Positions 3,824 to 48,175 of a stretch of 64,000 nucleotides of DNA are shown one piece after another. The notes under the pieces were generated by a model. The model searched no databases, had not been told where the DNA came from, and saw only the letters and a program-made list of their open reading frames with translations. This stretch comes from an uncultured Selenomonadaceae bacterium. GTDB lineage: Bacteria > Bacillota > Negativicutes > Selenomonadales > Selenomonadaceae. How positions within the stretch are numbered: position 1 is the first letter of the stretch; each line of letters begins with the position of its first letter. The DNA lies in assembly GCA_902778455.1 (NCBI GenBank), contig CACYXR010000004.1, positions 62,001 to 126,000 on the forward strand. Reading direction: 5' to 3'. Both the position numbers and the translations under genes were made by a program.

Positions 3824-4216
3824 TTATTTCTTCACGTTCTCGTTAATGAACTTAACGATGTCGCCAGTCGGGGTACCCGGAGTGAATACCTCAGCGATGC
3901 CGGCCTCTTTCAGAGCCGGGATATCGCCGTCAGGAATGACGCCGCCGCCGATGATCAGGGTGTCTTTCATGCCCTTCTCACGGACGAGGTTAACAACTTT
4001 CGGGAAGAGGTGCGGATGCGCACCGGAAAGGATGCTCATCGCAACAACATTGACGTCCTCATCGGCAGCAGCCTGAGCGATCTGCTCCGGCGTCTGACGG
4101 AGACCCGTGTAGATAACCTCAAAACCGGCATCGCGCAGAGCGCGAGCGACAACCTTGGCGCCACGATCATGACCATCCAGACCAGGCTTAGCAACTAAAA
4201 CTCTGATTTTATCCAT
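3824..4216 (-). CDS. Methylmalonyl-CoA mutase, cobalamin-binding small subunit
   Basis: A stand-alone B12-binding domain of 130 residues that pairs with the large subunit encoded upstream to isomerise succinyl-CoA and methylmalonyl-CoA. The base-on B12 signature is complete: DGHDRG (DxHxxG) near residue 14, then SxL in AMSILSG and the glycine pair in IIGGGVIP. The start ATG is preceded by GGAGGG. The domain is usually the C-terminal part of a single chain in proteobacteria. Here it is a separate gene about 95 bp after the large subunit. Confidence 0.95.
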
Positions 4217-4311
4217 TATTTTATTCCCTCCAACTTAGATTCAGCTTCGTGCGCGTACGTTCCGCGCACTAGGCATTTGCAAAAACTCGAGTTGAGAAAC
4301 CGGGCCTGAAA

Positions 4312-5991
4312 TTACAGGCTGACATGAGCCTCATAGAGACCGAAGACTTCGCGCATGACGTTGCAGATTTCGCCGAGCGTAGCATACGTCTTGACAGCCT
4401 TCAGGATATGCGGCATGAGGTTCTCGCTCTCGTCCTTCTTGCAAGCTTCCTTCAATTCCGCAAGAGCAGCCTTGACAGCCTCGTTGTCGCGGCCCTTGGT
4501 CATCTTGTTGATCGGCTTGCCGGCCTTCAGGTCAGCCAGCTTCTTGCACTGCTCAACGCCGACGGAAGCATCAACCTTCAGGAGGCCCTTAGGCGGCTCT
4601 TCTTCCTGAGTGTACTCGTTGACGCCGACGATGATGCGGCGCTTGTTCTCGACGTCCATCTGCCACTTGTAAGCCGAATCCTGGATTTCCTTCTGGATGT
4701 AGCCCTTCTCGATAGCAGCAACGGCGCCGCCGAGCTCGTCGATCTTCTTGATGTAATCCCAAGCTTCCTTCTCGATGCGGTCGGTCATAGCCTCTACATA
4801 GTAGGAGCCAGCCAGCGGATCGATGACGTCGGCCAGGCCGCTCTCGTTCGCGACAATCTGCTGCGTGCGAAGAGCGATGGTAACGGACTCGGTCGTCGGC
4901 AGAGCCAGCGCCTCATCCTTGGAGTTCGTGTGGAGGGACTGCGTGCCGCCCATGACAGCTGCTGCCGTCTGGAGAGCAACGCGGACGATGTTGTTGTTCG
5001 GCTGCTGCGCCGTCAGCATCGAGCCAGCCGTCTGGGTGTGAACGCGGAGCATCATGGATTTCGGCTTCTGCGCACCGAAGCGCTCCTTCATGACTTTCGC
5101 CCAGACGCGGCGGGAAGCACGGAACTTCGCGACCTCTTCGAGAACGTTGTTGTGAGCGTTCCAGAAGAAGGACAGACGGCCCGCGAAATCGTCGACGTTC
5201 ATGCCAGCCTTGATAGCGGCGTCGACGTAAGCGATACCATCGGCGATCGTGAAAGCGATTTCCTGCGAAGCGGTGGAACCAGCCTCACGGATATGATAAC
5301 CGGAGATCGAGATCGTGTTCCACTTCGGAACGTTCTTCGAGCAATACTCGAAGATGTTCGTGATGATACGCATGGACGGCTTCGGCGGGAAGATGTACGT
5401 GCCGCGGGCAGCATACTCTTTCAGGATATCATTCTGGATCGTGCCGCGCAGCTGGTCAGCCGGAACGCCCTGCTCCTCAGCAACAGCGATGTACATGCAG
5501 AGGAGGACGGACGCCGGAGCGTTGATCGTCATCGAAGTCGAAACCTTGCCAAGATCGATCTGGTCGAACAGGACTTCCATATCGGCCAGGGAGTCGATGG
5601 CAACGCCGACCTTGCCGACCTCGCCCTCGGAGATCGGATCATCGGAGTCATAACCAATCTGCGTCGGAAGATCGAAAGCGCAGGAAAGGCCCGTGCCGCC
5701 GTTCGCGATCAGATAACGATAACGCTCGTTGGAAGCCTTAGCCGTCGAGAAGCCGGCATACATACGCATGGTCCAGAAACGGCCGCGATACATGGTCGGC
5801 TGAACGCCGCGCGTGAACGGATACTGACCGGGGAAGCCGATCTTTTCATTGTACTCGTCTGCGCCCGCAACATCCAGCGGCGTGTAGAGACGCTGCTCCG
5901 GCAGATGCTTGCGCTCCGGAGTCTTCTCGATAGCTTTCGCTACGGCAGCTTCGTACTTTTCGAGTTCAGCTTTGATCTTTTCATTGCTCAT
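4312..5991 (-). CDS. Methylmalonyl-CoA mutase, large (substrate-binding) subunit
   Basis: The TIM-barrel half of adenosylcobalamin-dependent methylmalonyl-CoA mutase, 559 residues. It converts succinyl-CoA to (R)-methylmalonyl-CoA in propionate formation. Visible family segments are [20 protein letters not shown] near residue 57, the [17 protein letters not shown] stretch, and the [16 protein letters not shown] segment, which includes a conserved active-site His. It ends before any B12-binding motif, which is supplied by the next gene. ATG start with GGAGGG 10 bases upstream. The gene lies between the CoA transferase and the small subunit. Confidence 0.95.
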
Positions 5992-32778: not shown

Positions 32779-32781
32779 AAC

Positions 32782-32816
32782 AAAAGGAGCGGCCCCCGAG
32801 TGAGCCGTTCCTTTTT
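32782..32816 (+). terminator. Terminator after flavodoxin lipoprotein copy 1
   Basis: AGGAGCGGC pairs with GCCGTTCCT (one G-U), followed by TTTTC on the plus strand. A-run on the 5' side makes it usable on the minus strand for the converging ATPase gene. Confidence 0.75.
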
Positions 32817-32826
32817 CGCATAGAGC

Positions 32827-34008
32827 CTACAAGTCGTCCATCATCAAAAAGTCCTTGAGCTTGTAGTGGTAAACCGTGCTGGTGGAATAATCGACGCCGT
32901 CGTTGGTGATGAGGATTTTCTTCATGGAATTGTCCATTTCCCTGAATGCGGCAAATTCCCGCGCATACGCTTTGTCCTCCGCAACGCTGTACGCGACCTG
33001 CACCATGTAGACTTTGCCGCCTTTCACGGCGCGGAAGTCGATTTCTTTGCCTTTATGGCTGTACGCGGAAATCTCATACCCCATATAGAGCAGTTCGTTC
33101 AGCACGACATTTTCCAAATTGTGGGTCAGGTCGTAGCGTTCCCCCACGCGCCGGATGCTGTTCAGGGAAACGTCCTCGTCGTAGAGCTTGCTGTAATAAT
33201 CCAGCTTCGCTTTTGCCTTCGGGGAATACAGGGGTAAGTCCTGAATGACATAGGCCTCTTTCAGGTAACCGAGGTACTTGATGACCGTGGGGACGGACAC
33301 GGAAACGTTCTGCCCTTTCATATAGTCCGCAATGGAGCTGGCGCTGAATATTCGGGCGTTGGAAACGAGCACATAATCCACTAAGCGCTCGAATATGTCC
33401 TTTTTTCGGATGGCATAGCGGTTTTCGAGGTCGTTGTAAATAATCGTGGCGTTGAGGTCGTTCAGGTATCGCTTCATAGAGTCCTCGTCCGGCTGCTCCA
33501 GCGCCGCAGGGAATCCGCCCCAAACCAGATAATCGTCGATCCCGAAGCGTCGCCCCAACTGGTCGGCGTATGCTTTTGCTTCCCGGTAGACGAAAGGGCG
33601 CGCCCGAAAGGAAACATAGCGCCCGGACAGCTCTTTCGTGAACTCTTTGGACAAGAGCCGGGAATTGCTGCCGGTGATGAATACGGACACATTGGAAAGG
33701 CGGAGCGTCCGGCAGGCCTCGCTCCAGCCCTCCACATTCTGCACTTCGTCCAGAAACAGATAGAGTTTTTCTTCTCCGAGATATCCGTTCACATGGGCAA
33801 GGAGCGCGTCGGCGTTCGGAATCCGGGTGCGGAGCGGACGCAAATCGAAATCCAGGAACAGACACTTTTTCCCTGCGGCTTCCAGCTCCGACTGAACCTG
33901 TTTCAAAATCACGGACTTTCCGCATCGTCGGACGCCCGTGATGATCTTGACGAGGTCGCTTTCGTAGAAAGGCCGGATTTGAGACAGGTAGTGTTCACGG
34001 ATAATCAT
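32827..34008 (-). CDS. AAA+ ATPase with C-terminal DUF4143
   Basis: 393 residues. Walker A GVRRCGKS near residue 26, Walker B YLFLDEVQN near residue 82, and sensor region VFITGSNSRLLSKE near residue 108. A winged-helix stretch (ASSIADYMKGQNVSVSVPTV) is near residue 225 and a nuclease-like C-terminal domain contains EIDF and VYMVQVAY segments (PD-(D/E)XK-like). This family is widespread, highly paralogous and of unclear function. AAAGGAGGG precedes the ATG. The promoter is embedded in repeated motifs, suggesting autoregulation. Confidence 0.85.
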   Translation of the reverse strand: MIIREHYLSQIRPFYESDLVKIITGVRRCGKSVILKQVQSELEAAGKKCLFLDFDLRPLRTRIPNADALLAHVNGYLGEEKLYLFLDEVQNVEGWSEACRTLRLSNVSVFITGSNSRLLSKEFTKELSGRYVSFRARPFVYREAKAYADQLGRRFGIDDYLVWGGFPAALEQPDEDSMKRYLNDLNATIIYNDLENRYAIRKKDIFERLVDYVLVSNARIFSASSIADYMKGQNVSVSVPTVIKYLGYLKEAYVIQDLPLYSPKAKAKLDYYSKLYDEDVSLNSIRRVGERYDLTHNLENVVLNELLYMGYEISAYSHKGKEIDFRAVKGGKVYMVQVAYSVAEDKAYAREFAAFREMDNSMKKILITNDGVDYSTSTVYHYKLKDFLMMDDL

Positions 34009-34030
34009 TTGTGTCCCTCCTTTACCTGAT

Positions 34031-34059
34031 ATTCTACTTTAAGATTTTACACCGGTCAA
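34031..34059 (-). promoter_or_regulatory. Promoter of the DUF4143 ATPase gene
   Basis: TTGACC (34054-34059) and TAGAAT (34031-34036) are 17 bp apart on the minus strand. The spacer and -10 are covered by one copy of the repeated CTACTTTAAGATTTT motif. Confidence 0.75.
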
Positions 34060-34115
34060 CAAAATCTTAAAGTAGTATTTTAAGATTTTACTCATATTAA
34101 AAAATCTTAAAGTAG
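34034..34115. repeat. Four copies of a 15-bp motif in alternating orientation (operator-like array)
   Basis: CTACTTTAAGATTTT occurs at 34034-34048 and, with two changes, near 34077-34089; its inverse occurs at 34061-34075 and 34101-34115. The copies form two inverted pairs that bracket the ATPase promoter. The arrangement fits an operator set for a dimeric or oligomeric regulator. The winged-helix segment inside the ATPase makes it a candidate binder. Confidence 0.8.
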
Positions 34116-34121
34116 GCATAA

Positions 34122-34162
34122 AAAGCAAAAGGAACGGCCTCCGCAGGGAAGCCGCTCCTTTT
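34122..34162 (-). terminator. Terminator after the MFS gene at 34195
   Basis: AAAAGGAGCGGC pairs with GCCGTTCCTTTT on the minus strand, followed by GCTTTTTA. The core resembles the hairpin at 32782-32816 (AGGAGCGGC with GCCGTTCC), so the two terminators flanking the ATPase gene are related in sequence. Confidence 0.8.
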
Positions 34163-34194
34163 GCCGCTGCATCCGGCGGCGCAGCTCGACAATA

Positions 34195-35352
34195 TTATTC
34201 CTTTGGCTCTTTCAGCGTGAAGGAAGCGGCCGCTCCGAGGGCGCCGACAATCCAGAGGATTTGGAGCGCGGCGGCGAGGCCCCAGCGGTCGGCGGCCCAG
34301 CCGACGGCGGGCGCGAAGACGCCTCCGATGGTCGTCGTCAGGCCGAGGGTGACGCCCGAAGCGAAGCCCGCGTTCTTGCCCAGATATTTCTGTCCCAGCA
34401 CGACGACCGGACTGTACGGCAAAAAGAGCGCGATTGCCGCCGGCACGAGCAGGAGCGAGGCGAACAGGACGGTTTCGCTGTTCACGAGGAAAAACATGGC
34501 CGGAACCATCAGCACAAACGCGCCGCGCAGGACGGGCACGAACCCGACGCGGTCGGCGAGCAGGCCGCCGCAATAGGTGAACAGGGCGCCCATGGTGAAG
34601 AGCAGGGAGAGCGCCATCGTTCCCTGCTTCGGCGTGGCGCCGAGGACGCTGACCCAGAAAATCGGGATAAAGGTATTGGAAAGCGTGAAGCCGAGGGAAC
34701 GGGCGAAGATGGTCACGGACAGCCGTCCGAAGGACGCCCAGTCGTTTTTCCGCTGCCCGGACGATCCCCGCGAGGTCTGCGGGCTCGCAGCTTCGGCGGA
34801 CTTCGTCATGCGGGGAAGCAGCCGGGCGATGGCAAAGGCCGCCGAAGCGTTCACGACGCCGAACAACGCCAGCGAATGAATGCCAATCGTGTAGGCGCAG
34901 AAGCCCGCGACGATCGGCCCGACCGCGAATCCGGCGTTGCCGCCGACGGAAAAGGTGGACATCGCCTGCCCCTTGTGCGCCCCGGCAATCCGCCCCGCGA
35001 AAAGCGCCGCCTCCGGATGGAACAGCGCGCTGCCGAGGCCGCAGACCATCGCGGCGGCGAAAATCATCCAATAGGACGAGGAAAAACCGATGAGCGTGAT
35101 GCTGAGTCCGCAGAAAAGCGGTCCCAGCGGGATAAACCAGGGCAGGGAAATCTTGTCGGAGTAATAGCCGAAAAGAGGCTGGAGCACTGAGGAAAGCAGC
35201 ACGTTCGCGAAGACCAGCGAAGCCGCCTCCCGGTACGAAAGCCCGTAGTTCGCGATGAAGTACGGCAAAAGCGCGGGAATCGCGCTCTGCGCCCAATCGA
35301 CGCAGGCGTGCCCCAGCGCGAAATAGTAGATGGATTTGTCCAGGTTTTTCAT
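34195..35352 (-). CDS. MFS transporter, fosmidomycin-resistance-like
   Basis: 385 residues, twelve hydrophobic segments. N-terminus FALGHACVDWAQSAIPALLP and the GLGSALFHPEA segment near residue 107 resemble the Fsr/YfnC-type drug exporters of the major facilitator superfamily. Substrate cannot be read from sequence. Transcribed alone, away from the PAS-like gene at 35575. The 222-bp gap on its upstream side has AT-rich stretches on both strands but no promoter I would assign with confidence. Confidence 0.82.
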   Translation of the reverse strand: MKNLDKSIYYFALGHACVDWAQSAIPALLPYFIANYGLSYREAASLVFANVLLSSVLQPLFGYYSDKISLPWFIPLGPLFCGLSITLIGFSSSYWMIFAAAMVCGLGSALFHPEAALFAGRIAGAHKGQAMSTFSVGGNAGFAVGPIVAGFCAYTIGIHSLALFGVVNASAAFAIARLLPRMTKSAEAASPQTSRGSSGQRKNDWASFGRLSVTIFARSLGFTLSNTFIPIFWVSVLGATPKQGTMALSLLFTMGALFTYCGGLLADRVGFVPVLRGAFVLMVPAMFFLVNSETVLFASLLLVPAAIALFLPYSPVVVLGQKYLGKNAGFASGVTLGLTTTIGGVFAPAVGWAADRWGLAAALQILWIVGALGAAASFTLKEPKE

Positions 35353-35574
35353 ACGTTTCCTTCTTCCCGCCGCAAAGAAGCGGTTTCTTTTGCCTGTATT
35401 TTATCTGTATTTTATAATGAAAGTTTTCCTTTGGGAAGAACCGGATTCATGATACGGCTATCGTTTTTTCATATATAGAAAACAGATACCACCATATATA
35501 TTATTTGCTTTCCCTTTCGGGTTATTCGTTGTAAAATAAGAACAATCGAAATGATTTTACGGGAGGGTACCGCA

Positions 35575-35904
35575 ATGGAAGAAAAGGATTACACGGAACT
35601 GATCGAGGCGTTTCACAAGACTAGGGAGCTGTTCCCAGGGCAGGCACGGCTCATCGACCGGAAGCATCGGGTCATTGCCGTCAACGCATTTGCGGCGAAC
35701 AACGGGCGGAAGCCGGGAGAAATTTGTGCGCAGTTCGGCACGCCGGAAAGCCATCGCGGCTGCCGGAAAATGGCGGCGCTGGATACGGGCATCGGTCAGC
35801 TTGATCGTCCGTTCGCGGAGCGGGTGCGCGGTTGGGTGCCGTTGGAAGGATACCCGGACGTGGTCGTGCATTTCTCGCTGGCGGTGCCCGAGGTCAATGA
35901 TTGA
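35575..35904 (+). CDS. Small PAS-like protein, copy 1
   Basis: 109 residues. The sequence reads like a single PAS fold: LIDRKHRVIAVNAFAANNG (residues 26-44) is the central PAS strand-helix, followed by GEICAQFGTPESHRGCRKM with two Cys, then strands VRGWVPLEGYPDVVVHFSL. No output domain, so it probably binds a cofactor or partner. Start at 35575 has GGGAGGG 8 bases upstream. Paralogue of 38952-39326. Both copies are followed by a LysR gene. Assignment to PAS is by pattern only. Confidence 0.62.
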   Translation: MEEKDYTELIEAFHKTRELFPGQARLIDRKHRVIAVNAFAANNGRKPGEICAQFGTPESHRGCRKMAALDTGIGQLDRPFAERVRGWVPLEGYPDVVVHFSLAVPEVND

Positions 35905-36170: not shown

Positions 36171-37046
36171 ATGGATTTGCAGGCGCTTCGGTACTTTCGG
36201 ATTGTGGCGCGGGAGGGCAGCTTTTCCCAGGCGGCGCAAAAGCTGAATTACGCGCAGTCGAATCTTTCCACAAAAATCCGTCAGCTGGAGGGGGAACTGG
36301 AAACGCCGCTGTTTCGCCGTCACGCGCATGGCGTAACGCTGACGGAAAAAGGCGAATCGCTTTTGGCCTACGCTGATCGGCTGGTTCATCTTTTGGAGGA
36401 AGCAGAAAGCGTCGTCCGGGACGACGGCACGGCAAAGGGAAGCCTCTCTGTCGGCTCGATGGAGTCAGCGGCCATCACATTCATTCCCGTGCTTTTGGCC
36501 GAATATCACCGCCGATGCCCGGGCGTGTCCCTGACGGTGAAAACCGGCGTTTCGCAGGCGTCGATGAGGAGCGTGCTGGACGGCACGCTGGACGGAGCTT
36601 TCGTGGCCGGCGCGACGGTACACGCGGAGCTTTCGTCCGTTCCGGTGCGCCGCGAGCGGCTGGCTCTTTTCTCGGCGACGGGAACGGAAACAACCCCCGT
36701 CGCCAATCTGTTGGCGGGGCCGCTCCTGGTATTGCCTCACGGCTGCTCCTACCGACAAAGCCTGGAGGAATGGCTTGACGCGGAACGAATTTTCCCGGAG
36801 CGCGCCGTGGAGTTCGATTCCATCGGGGCGCTCCTCGCGAGCGTCAGCGCCGGACTGGGCGCGGCACTGTTCCCGGAAAGCCTTGCCTCCGTCTATACCG
36901 CCGCGAAGGGGCTGATTTGCCACGCGGTTCCCGAGCCTTACGCATGGGCGGACATTTCCTTCGTCTGGCGGCGCGACCGCTTTATGGACAGCACGTTTCG
37001 GAGCTTTTTAGGGCTTCTGCGCGAGAAAAGCAAAGCGGGGAAATAG
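36171..37046 (+). CDS. LysR-family transcriptional regulator
   Basis: 291 residues. N-terminal winged helix-turn-helix (LRYFRIVAREGSFSQAAQKL, residues 5-24) and a periplasmic-binding-like effector domain from residue 90. Same strand and close behind the PAS-like and tautomerase genes (34 bp), so possibly one transcript. A terminator follows. Confidence 0.93.
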   Translation: MDLQALRYFRIVAREGSFSQAAQKLNYAQSNLSTKIRQLEGELETPLFRRHAHGVTLTEKGESLLAYADRLVHLLEEAESVVRDDGTAKGSLSVGSMESAAITFIPVLLAEYHRRCPGVSLTVKTGVSQASMRSVLDGTLDGAFVAGATVHAELSSVPVRRERLALFSATGTETTPVANLLAGPLLVLPHGCSYRQSLEEWLDAERIFPERAVEFDSIGALLASVSAGLGAALFPESLASVYTAAKGLICHAVPEPYAWADISFVWRRDRFMDSTFRSFLGLLREKSKAGK

Positions 37047-38577: not shown

Positions 38578-38931
38578 ATGAAAATGACAAAAGCGGAAAT
38601 CGTCGAAAAAGTGAAAGACCTGATCAACGCGTCGAGCTGCTACGCGCCGCTCAAGGAATTGGCGGAGGCGTGGCTGAAGGCGCAGGGCACGGCGGAGGAA
38701 AAGGAAATGAGCAGGAAGCTCGTCGCCGAGCTGGAAGCGGACGTGCAGACCGCCGAGGATTCCTTGCATTTCTTTGAATCGGAGACCGGTCAGAAGATTT
38801 TCGGCGCGGAAACAGCGGCGCAGATGGCGGCGCATTTCAGGGAGCTGATCGCCTCCGGCGGCAAATGGTGCGACTGCCCCGCCTGTGCGCCCGGCCGGGC
38901 AATCCTGGACAACAAAGAAGTTATTTTGTAA
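38578..38931 (+). CDS. Small conserved-looking protein with Cys-rich C-terminus
   Basis: 117 residues, mostly helical by composition (EIVEKVKDLINASSCYAPLKELAEAWL...) with a C-terminal KWCDCPACAPG motif holding three Cys in a C-x-C-x2-C pattern that could bind metal. GTGGGGGA precedes the ATG; a second ATG two codons on is also possible. 21 bp after rubrerythrin and 20 bp before the PAS-like gene, so part of the same oxidative-stress unit. Family not recognised. Confidence 0.68.
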   Translation: MKMTKAEIVEKVKDLINASSCYAPLKELAEAWLKAQGTAEEKEMSRKLVAELEADVQTAEDSLHFFESETGQKIFGAETAAQMAAHFRELIASGGKWCDCPACAPGRAILDNKEVIL

Positions 38932-38951
38932 AAAAGGCAAAGTGTTACATC

Positions 38952-39326
38952 ATGACGGTAGAAGAAATCATCCGCGCATTCCATTTGATGTGGGACGGTT
39001 TTCCCGAGCCAATCATGCTGATCAGGAAGAGCCGGGAAATCGTTGCCGCGAACAAGAAGGCAGAGGCCTTCGGCATCAAAGTGGGCTCGAAATGCTCGTC
39101 CTACGGCAAGCCGGAGCAGCACAAGGGCTGCCGCTGCAACGAGGCGGCGGATGAAAAGAAAACCATCGCCGTCACCTACAAGGGGCCCTTCGGCAAAGAC
39201 GCCTACGGCTATTGGATTCCGCTGCCGGAGCAGCCGGAGTATATACTCCATTTCAGCGTCGGCATCACGATGGAATACGAGGAAGCGAAGAACGTGAATG
39301 TTACGAAGGATGTACTGAGCAAATAA
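38952..39326 (+). CDS. Small PAS-like protein, copy 2
   Basis: 124 residues. Shares with the gene at 35575 the order helix-FPEP-LIRKSREIVAANKKAEAFG (PAS core, residues 22-41), then GSKCSSYGKPEQHKGCRCNEA with three Cys, then YWIPLPEQPEYILHFSVGI. The Cys pair after the core could bind heme or an iron-sulfur cluster, or sense redox; this is inference. Ribosome site weak. Downstream lies a LysR gene after 36 bp, the same neighbour as copy 1. Confidence 0.64.
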   Translation: MTVEEIIRAFHLMWDGFPEPIMLIRKSREIVAANKKAEAFGIKVGSKCSSYGKPEQHKGCRCNEAADEKKTIAVTYKGPFGKDAYGYWIPLPEQPEYILHFSVGITMEYEEAKNVNVTKDVLSK

Positions 39327-39362: not shown

Positions 39363-40256
39363 ATGGAGCTTCGTGTGCTCAAATATTTTCTTGCCGTCGC
39401 GCGTCATGAGAATATCAGCCGGGCGGCGGAGGAACTGAACCTGACGCAGCCGACGCTTTCCCGGCAGCTCGCCGAGCTGGAAGAGGAACTGGGGGCGGCG
39501 CTTTTCGTGCGCGGCAAACGGAAAACGCAGCTGACGGAAGCCGGGATGTTCCTGAAGATGCGGGCCGAGGAAATCACCGCTCTCGCCAGCAAGACCCTGG
39601 AGCAGTTCGCCCACGCGGACGAGATGGTTGAGGGGGACGTTTATATCGGCTGCGGCGAGACGGAAGGGATGCGGGAGATTATTCGCGCCGTCGCGCCTCT
39701 GCACACCTCCTATCCCCGGATTCGCCTCCATCTGACCAGCGGCAACGAGGAAATTGTGACCGACCGACTGCAAAAGGGACTTTTGGATTTCGGGCTGCTG
39801 TGCTGCGCTGCGCCGCCGGTGGAGTACGCCTATCGGCAGCTTTCCCATGAGGACGTCTGGGGGCTGTACCTGCGCCGGTCGAATCCGCTGGCGGCACAGA
39901 GAGGGATCCGCGCCGAAGAATTGACGCGGGAGCCGTTGATCGTGTCGCGGCAGGCAATGGAGGCAAAGGAGTTTGACCATTGGCTGGGGCGCCGTGCGGA
40001 GGAACTGAACGTCGTGGGCACTTATAATTTGGTATACAATGCGCGCTTCATGGCCGAGCAGGGCTTCGGCAGCATCCTGAGCTTCTCGGGGCTGCTTTCG
40101 ACGGACGAGGATGACGGGGAAGGTCTCGTGTTCCGTCCGCTCATGCCGGAGCTTCGTTCCCGCAATTATCTGATATGGAAGAAAGGACAGGTCTTTTCCC
40201 GTGCGGGGCGCCTGGTCATGGCGTGTTTCGAGGCCTCGTTTACGGATAGTAAATGA
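39363..40256 (+). CDS. LysR-family transcriptional regulator
   Basis: 297 residues with N-terminal helix-turn-helix (LKYFLAVARHENISRAAEEL, residues 5-24, then QPTLSRQLAELEEELG) and a substrate-binding effector domain. Follows the second PAS-like gene and precedes, on the same strand, an exported hydrolase with its own promoter. Confidence 0.93.
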   Translation: MELRVLKYFLAVARHENISRAAEELNLTQPTLSRQLAELEEELGAALFVRGKRKTQLTEAGMFLKMRAEEITALASKTLEQFAHADEMVEGDVYIGCGETEGMREIIRAVAPLHTSYPRIRLHLTSGNEEIVTDRLQKGLLDFGLLCCAAPPVEYAYRQLSHEDVWGLYLRRSNPLAAQRGIRAEELTREPLIVSRQAMEAKEFDHWLGRRAEELNVVGTYNLVYNARFMAEQGFGSILSFSGLLSTDEDDGEGLVFRPLMPELRSRNYLIWKKGQVFSRAGRLVMACFEASFTDSK

Positions 40257-48071: not shown

Positions 48072-48175
48072 ACTGGCATACCATAGTTTTTGCCGATTCT
48101 TATCATGAATTTCAGGAGCGAAGAACGTTTTTGGTTTAAGATTTTGTAGCTTAAAGCAAATGCTTAAAATACTGC

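Follow-up and report, generated by a model that had tools for sequence, protein, structure and literature searches.

Autoregulation through an operator is a known kind of circuit. According to the available passages of the papers cited here, the C proteins of type II restriction-modification (R-M) systems bind an operator at their own promoter, and the specificity of this operator defines incompatibility (PMC3874152). RptR, the repressor of a phage defence island, binds direct repeats overlapping the -10 of its own promoter (PMC12255303); it is a 9-kDa protein with 9-bp repeats, controls an island of several genes and is not an ATPase. IniR, also an ATPase, carries an SSO1545-like domain and binds a promoter, but it is larger (818 aa), its target is another operon, which it activates, and its C-terminal DNA-binding domain is of a different kind (PMC5760070). 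An AAA+ domain followed by a winged helix is also found in archaeal Orc1/Cdc6 proteins and in STAND-type regulators, to which IniR and MalT belong.

Here we describe a repeat array at the promoter of an ATPase gene of the defence candidate family PDC-S01, located in a 64,000-nucleotide stretch (the window) from the genome of an uncultured Selenomonadaceae bacterium. The circuit proposed for this gene resembles that of the C proteins, in that a defence gene would be controlled by a binder of its own promoter. Whereas C proteins act as dedicated helix-turn-helix regulators and are encoded next to R and M genes, the unit here has a single gene, and the candidate regulator is itself the AAA+ effector candidate, an ATPase unlike RptR. 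The ATPase shares the predicted order of AAA+ domain and winged helix with Orc1/Cdc6 and the STAND-type regulators, but Orc1/Cdc6 proteins bind origins and the window array sits at a promoter.

PDC-S01 is thought to be an antiviral family, still unvalidated. In the available passages of PMC12988326 it takes fourth place by frequency among the defences of prokaryotes, with 29494 copies counted in bacteria and 9986 in archaea; these passages describe it as an ATPase fused to a PD-(D/E)XK member, and give validation as pending for most such candidates. In rumen genomes it is the most frequent individual locus, with 10358 copies, according to the available passages of PMC13356809. Regulation of PDC-S01 or upstream repeats were not mentioned in these passages of either paper, nor in the titles and abstracts searched, a body of literature largely without subscription papers and preprints.

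The earlier note on this DNA had claimed that four alternating copies of a 15-bp motif surround the promoter of the DUF4143 ATPase gene, with one copy on the -10 box and spacer, its inverse next to the -35 box and a second inverted pair upstream. A motif scan and shuffles confirmed the copies, and their layout was as claimed (Table 1). The motif, CTACTTTAAGATTTT, is present over the predicted promoter in three exact copies and one with two mismatches, which form two inverted pairs (arms 11-12 nt apart) and have direct-repeat periods of 41 and 40 bp. The promoter is predicted, not mapped, and had the top promoter-like score (10 of 12) within 33950-34250; on this prediction, the sites overlap the promoter of their own gene as those of an autoregulatory operator do. 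With up to three mismatches allowed, the window contained five matches to CTACTTTAAGATTTT against 0.72 expected, the fifth lying at 48131-48145 (three mismatches), and five matches were reached in 0 of 100 shuffles. Within the 122 bp upstream of the ATPase start codon, one 13-mer occurred four times with at most one mismatch, against a maximum of two in 300 dinucleotide shuffles. Since neither the window shuffles nor the shuffles of the 122 bp ever matched the observed copy numbers, a chance origin of the window array is excluded. Genome-wide (2.6 Mb), five sites matched the 14-mer TACTTTAAGATTTT with at most one mismatch, namely the four array copies and a lone site on contig C1. The single occurrence of the array in the genome, on one promoter, spoke against reading it as a replication origin, as iterons or as CRISPR-like, and these readings were dropped.

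Table 1. Coordinates of the ATPase gene, its domains and the upstream array in the window
Feature	Position	Strand	Basis or remark
AAA_14 + DUF4143 ATPase gene, 393 aa, PADLOC PDC-S01	32827-34008	-	Pfam; PADLOC E 5.7e-108
AAA+/STAND-like ATPase domain, residues 1-140; GxRRxGKS and DEVQN conserved	33589-34008	-	Pfam, alignment, AF2 model
Predicted winged-helix region, residues 201-290	33139-33408	-	AF2 model; structural matches to residue 287-291
Predicted C-terminal PD-(D/E)XK-like domain, residues 284-393	32830-33159	-	alignment, AF2 model, structural matches
RBS-like GGAGGG	34015-34020	-	sequence
Predicted sigma-70 promoter TTGACC-17-TAGAAT (-35 box 34059-34054, 17-bp spacer, -10 box 34036-34031)	34031-34059	-	promoter scoring
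Motif copy 1, exact	34034-34048	+	over -10 and spacer of minus-strand promoter
Motif copy 2, exact	34061-34075	-	1 bp upstream of -35
Motif copy 3, 2 mismatches	34075-34089	+	motif scan
Motif copy 4, exact	34101-34115	-	motif scan
Terminator-like hairpin between array and upstream MFS gene	34124-34165	-	hairpin search

The ATPase matched the PADLOC profile PDLC04787 over residues 1-390 of 393, as a full-length member of PDC-S01, and both of its Pfam domains scored above their gathering cut-offs (AAA_14, 97.1 bits with cut-off 27; DUF4143, 50.8 bits with cut-off 28.1). A PDB sequence search with the protein gave no match up to E 1. The AlphaFold2 (AF2) model (mean pLDDT 89.8) was composed of an AAA+ domain, a helical linker, a winged helix at about residues 201-290 and a C-terminal alpha/beta domain. 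Within the modelled winged helix, helices were placed at 203-215, 223-232 and 239-251, the last being the putative recognition helix, with strands after 255. The first 287-291 residues were matched to the archaeal ATPases 2qen (Z 17.0, rmsd 3.3, 258 aligned) and 2fna (Z 17.0, rmsd 3.6, 259 aligned), and the N-terminal part also to NLR and CED-4 proteins (Z about 14.5-15.5) and to the Orc1/Cdc6 structures 1w5t (Z 13.2, rmsd 4.3, 253 aligned), 2qby (Z 13.3, rmsd 10.0, 255 aligned) and 2v1u (Z 12.1, rmsd 8.4, 256 aligned). The winged-helix-like segment already noticed in the sequence is thereby backed by a confident model and by structural matches.

Residues 284-393 modelled alone (pLDDT 89.9) pointed to a PD-(D/E)XK fold at moderate scores, through AF1548 (Z 9.1, rmsd 3.3, 98 aligned), Cdn1 (Z 8.8, rmsd 2.9, 103 aligned), VRR_NUC (Z 8.3, rmsd 3.1, 88 aligned) and Can2 (Z 8.2, rmsd 3.1, 107 aligned). 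Matches at Z 6-9 included Can2, Card1, VRR_NUC, McrC, Hjc and restriction enzymes, with many further nucleases, by title, at Z 6-8; a Z of 8 was reached by 9 of 1000 chains, and the best Foldseek E was 2.2e-3. E299, D324 and Q337 are conserved in this domain. Cleavage activity is doubtful, because the canonical (E/Q)xK catalytic Lys is absent from all 37 aligned sequences, the window protein having Q337-V-A.

The immediate neighbours of the gene are a flavodoxin-family gene and an MFS gene, and the downstream gene is convergent. A type II toxin-antitoxin operon was rejected, given the gene's own promoter, the upstream terminator-like hairpin, the convergent downstream gene and the mostly unrelated neighbours of its relatives, and an R-M controller protein was rejected for a 393-aa ATPase beside flavodoxin-family and MFS genes. 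The window genome carries ten DUF4143 genes, and on its contig C1 two DUF4143 genes lie close together, at 112372-112845 (+) and 113303-113794 (-). Elsewhere in the window, 35551-35904 and 38865-39326 encode small proteins of 117 and 153 aa which have a common GxPExHxGCR-like motif and no Pfam match; a LysR gene lies downstream of each, at 36171-37046 (after a tautomerase gene) and at 39363-40256.

Close relatives of the ATPase were located via six exact peptide patterns. Those of 73-81% identity came from MAGs filed as Selenomonadales, Lachnospiraceae, Spirochaetales, Oscillospiraceae, Acidaminococcaceae and others, and some of these labels may be binning errors. The array at the predicted promoter, well supported in the window and there taken by the earlier note for an operator layout, is kept in the relatives. 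Ten non-redundant relatives with an identity of 68% or more had enough sequence upstream of the gene, and each of them, like the window gene, had a significant array (p ≤ 0.04); in 8 of these 10 the motif was that of the window. Absence of the motif from homologous loci, which had been named as evidence against an operator, is thus contradicted among relatives of at least 68% identity. Worn distal copies, with mainly the promoter-proximal part kept, were seen in L009-L012, L014 and L016, and under an earlier score four of these six members were above 0.05 (L009 and L010, p 0.066; L014, 0.131; L016, 0.148). The exact inverted-pair pattern was present in 6 of 189 Selenomonadaceae genomes, five of which carry an ATPase relative of at least 77% identity; in the sixth (82% complete), a full four-copy array lies about 145 nt before the locus stops, presumably at a contig end. 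Among 398 genomes from across the phylum, a slightly longer inverted-pair pattern was found in one, that of the window, and the exact pattern missed the relative of 68% identity in genome G028. Within the genomes covered by these searches, the array goes with the ATPase gene.

The surroundings of these genes were compared for 21 loci with up to two ORFs on each side. Neighbours were common only to L009/L010, L009/L011 and L015/L018, besides one distant match of 31%, in a comparison where the ORF caller took some antisense ORFs in the window's genus, whose flanks are actually shared. Since the neighbours of the relatives mostly differ, the ATPase is the sole protein common to the compared loci, and near-identical arrays are found in differently classified hosts with mostly unrelated neighbours. 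Of 26 distinct upstream regions belonging to relatives of at least 42% identity, the window included, 21 have the promoter-proximal copy inside the 17-bp spacer of the best-scoring promoter; the promoter picker went elsewhere in the other five, and by eye the array promoter is present in L013, L022 and L102. The predicted 5' UTRs, from -10 to start codon, are similar within L009/L010/L011/L016 (about 77 nt) and within L015/L018 (about 80 nt), and these possibly contain hairpins.

For the family-wide test, every 180-bp upstream region was scored for an 11-mer recurring on either strand and compared with 100 dinucleotide shuffles of itself, P values being floored at 1/101. The Selenomonadaceae sample comprised 30 loci and 75 further ones from the earlier rows among the matches listed, hand-picked for a complete N-terminus, and three loci from another search and three from phage and plasmid records were also taken. 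Start codons were called by a simple rule, and the 204 loci with a called start (some of them repeats of one gene) were reduced to 150 by dropping proteins at least 85% identical, proteins shorter than 100 aa, and upstream regions that were rich in N or shorter than 130 bp. Controls were taken upstream of other ORFs (at least 150 aa) in the same loci and the window; some of these may be spurious, and among the 143 controls 4 resemble PDC-S01 proteins, one of these four being among the eight control hits.

PDC-S01 upstream regions are enriched for repeat arrays: p ≤ 0.01 was reached by 61 of 150 against 8 of 143 controls, and p ≤ 0.05 by 96 of 150 against 10 of 143. For regions with GC below 0.42 the counts were 54/129 and 86/129, respectively, against 4/61 and 5/61 in the controls, and three or more sites at p ≤ 0.01 were present in 57/150 against 5/143. 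The earlier score, with a different control, gave 43/109 against 2/94 (p ≤ 0.02) and 55/109 against 7/94 (p ≤ 0.05). By group, p ≤ 0.05 was reached by 8 of 11 Bacteroidota, 5 of 14 archaeal and 5 of 10 paralogues of the window genome. When one member per 55% cluster was taken, means of 21.6 of 71 (p ≤ 0.01) and 37.6 of 71 (p ≤ 0.05) were obtained, and 11 of 36 broad single-linkage clusters contained any array at p ≤ 0.01, some called arrays (e.g. L115, L146) resembling terminators of the upstream gene. With 54 of 150 upstream regions above p 0.05, including 9 of 14 archaeal ones, the feature is common and not universal, or the score misses single palindromes.

The arrays prefer certain spacings. 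Over 57 arrays, 55 of 109 same-orientation neighbour spacings were 39-42 bp and 23 were 31-34 bp, from 14 and 12 of 71 clusters with differing motifs, although a few motifs in this list resemble terminators of the upstream gene. A motif-free lag test was performed on the cluster-weighted fraction of regions with a near-exact direct repeat (complete linkage at 55%). Lags of 33, 32, 40, 39 and 41 had fractions of 0.172, 0.152, 0.125, 0.073 and 0.066, against control fractions of 0.028, 0.049, 0.021, 0.007 and 0.021; the mean over other lags was 0.0215, with lags 27, 50 and 19 (0.063, 0.060 and 0.059) near lag 41. Under single linkage at 45%, which put 78 of 150 sequences in one cluster, the lags of 40 and 41 bp dropped to 0.066 and 0.009 (controls 0.021 and 0.021), whereas those of 32 and 33 bp stayed at 0.207 and 0.196 (controls 0.049 and 0.028). 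Since its peak falls with broad clusters, the 40-41 bp form belongs, within this sample, mainly to the Selenomonadaceae. Some subfamilies have direct repeats at 23 or 32-33 bp.

The motif itself changes from gene to gene. ACTGAAA-type copies were found at L024 (60% identity), L129 (58%), and L102 and L103 (42-43%), the classes of L024 and L129 being assigned by eye, and L025 (71% over the 134 residues available) has six alternating copies of TAGTTTACGATTTT type with a 41-bp period. The relatives with a changed motif retain TTGxxx-17-TAxxAT with the last copy in the spacer (L102 by eye). Paralogues within one genome have differing motifs. L020 contains two PDC-S01 genes in tandem, the second starting about 125 bp after the first (4150-4330) and preceded by its own palindromic repeat (AAAACTGTAGAATTCTAC-like), unlike that of the first gene. 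Motif similarity had a mean of 11.6 of 15 bases within arrays. Between arrays it was 12.5 of 15 at protein identities of at least 70% (46 pairs, mostly from the window's clade), 8.7 at 50-70% (83 pairs), 8.4 at 40-50%, and 7.9 below 40%, the last being the background level of pairs without detectable similarity; below about 70% protein identity, the similarity of array motifs is near background. The copies of one array change together, which is the footprint expected of a co-evolving binder, and the preferred spacing combined with a gene-specific sequence suggests self-control, every protein reading the sites before its own gene. The initial operator interpretation is supported but was too modest; a change of motif with the layout kept had not been foreseen.

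The covariation of single domains did not single out the winged helix as the motif-setting part. Given the other domains, winged-helix identity had a partial correlation of -0.02 with motif similarity, and 205 of 300 permutations were as high; the corresponding values were 0.084 for the AAA domain (16/300), 0.099 for the linker (4/300) and -0.003 for the C-terminal domain. For 510 closer pairs, values of 0.034 (winged helix), 0.134 (AAA) and 0.166 (recognition helix alone) were obtained. At the start of the putative recognition helix, Pro is present in 16 of 16 window-clade sequences and Asn in L024, L129 and L102-L104; an ACTGAAA-type array was not seen at L104. This Pro/Asn difference follows the clade split and is inseparable from ancestry.

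These domain-level results would also fit an array bound by another host protein, a transcription factor or a nucleoid protein, with the ATPase as merely the regulated gene: winged-helix identity predicts the motif no better than other domains do, and binding by the ATPase is itself what we infer. Such a factor would, however, need one specificity per ATPase gene. The differing motifs of same-genome paralogues and of the L020 neighbours argue against one global host factor, as do near-identical arrays across differently classified hosts, and the window genome has no other array of the CTACTTTAAGATTTT motif, so that we regard binding by a host factor as unlikely. Repeats acting as RNA or DNA hairpins (attenuator, terminator or cruciform) instead of protein sites are very improbable: the array does have two inverted pairs with 11-12 nt between arms and a terminator-like hairpin just upstream, but the predicted -10 puts the transcription start downstream of nearly the whole array, and some subfamilies have direct repeats.

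There is also a slim chance that the array is not an operator but the substrate of the protein, where it lands, cuts or is tethered, for example as part of a one-gene mobile element. The close relatives occur in many contexts, the C-terminal domain is predicted to have a nuclease-like fold, and in the same-genus genome G055 (locus L210) the MFS gene is present while both the ATPase and the array are missing, the junction falling within terminator-like repeats; the left neighbour in G055 differs too, another gene replacing most of the flavodoxin gene, and no clean empty site was found. Against a substrate, the copies are at the promoter end only, with none inside the ATPase gene or beyond its 3' end, the promoter overlap is retained in the 21 of 26 regions given above, and the canonical catalytic Lys is missing throughout the alignment. 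In the window, the ATPase-array unit is bordered on both sides (32780-32825 and 34124-34165) by terminator-like hairpins that have a CAAAAGGA(G/A)CGGC stretch in common, and a sequence of this type also occurs at about 1420-1470 of L210, where the junction lies inside it and the unit is lacking. In viral contigs, two inverted-pair patterns gave 0 matches for an array without the gene, and a peptide-pattern search found no ATPase relative; blastn of the array against plasmids and phages gave partial matches only, the best E among the matches listed being 0.7 and 0.8, with no record covering 80% of the query. A deposited, phage-labelled and unverified fragment carries a 58% ATPase relative with its own array. 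An ATPase relative is encoded in 239 plasmid records, 174 of them from Acinetobacter, and upstream regions were scored for two of the 239 records, L130 and L131.

We consider it probable that the array is a private operator, each ATPase binding its own array via the winged helix and repressing its own promoter while the motif co-diversifies with the protein. Autoregulation by the ATPase itself is suggested by sequence patterns and structural models. ATPase subunits would bind the four motif copies through the winged-helix domain, presumably with a role for ATP. With 40-41 bp from one inverted pair to the next, which is roughly four turns of the helix, an oligomer could line up on one face of the DNA; cooperative binding would then cover the -35 and -10 boxes and presumably repress the gene. 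Through repression, an AAA+/nuclease-fold protein that could be harmful may set its own level and keep it low, and the gene would surge when the ATPase is absent, as on entry into a new host, is drawn off, or is switched by a putative trigger. Across much of PDC-S01, the geometry of about 33 or 40-41 bp would be kept while the motif drifts along with the protein. A tentative and rather doubtful extension is that PDC-S01 ATPases are a large class of self-addressed immune or selfish genes, whose private promoter addresses would diversify in the manner of phage immunity groups or plasmid incompatibility and let many copies coexist in one cell without cross-talk; the array would be the resting place of the protein, and leaving the array-bound state, through titration or a trigger, would free the protein and turn the gene on.

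In conclusion, a private, co-diversifying operator across PDC-S01 appears to be undescribed in the literature searched. PDC-S01 is among the most abundant defence candidates reported, and we found no description of what triggers it or how it acts. For each protein, a private operator would provide a predicted DNA ligand together with a ready-made reporter, and such operators would form a natural set of protein-DNA specificity pairs. The operator would also give a way to ask whether a given PDC-S01 copy is on or off during infection.
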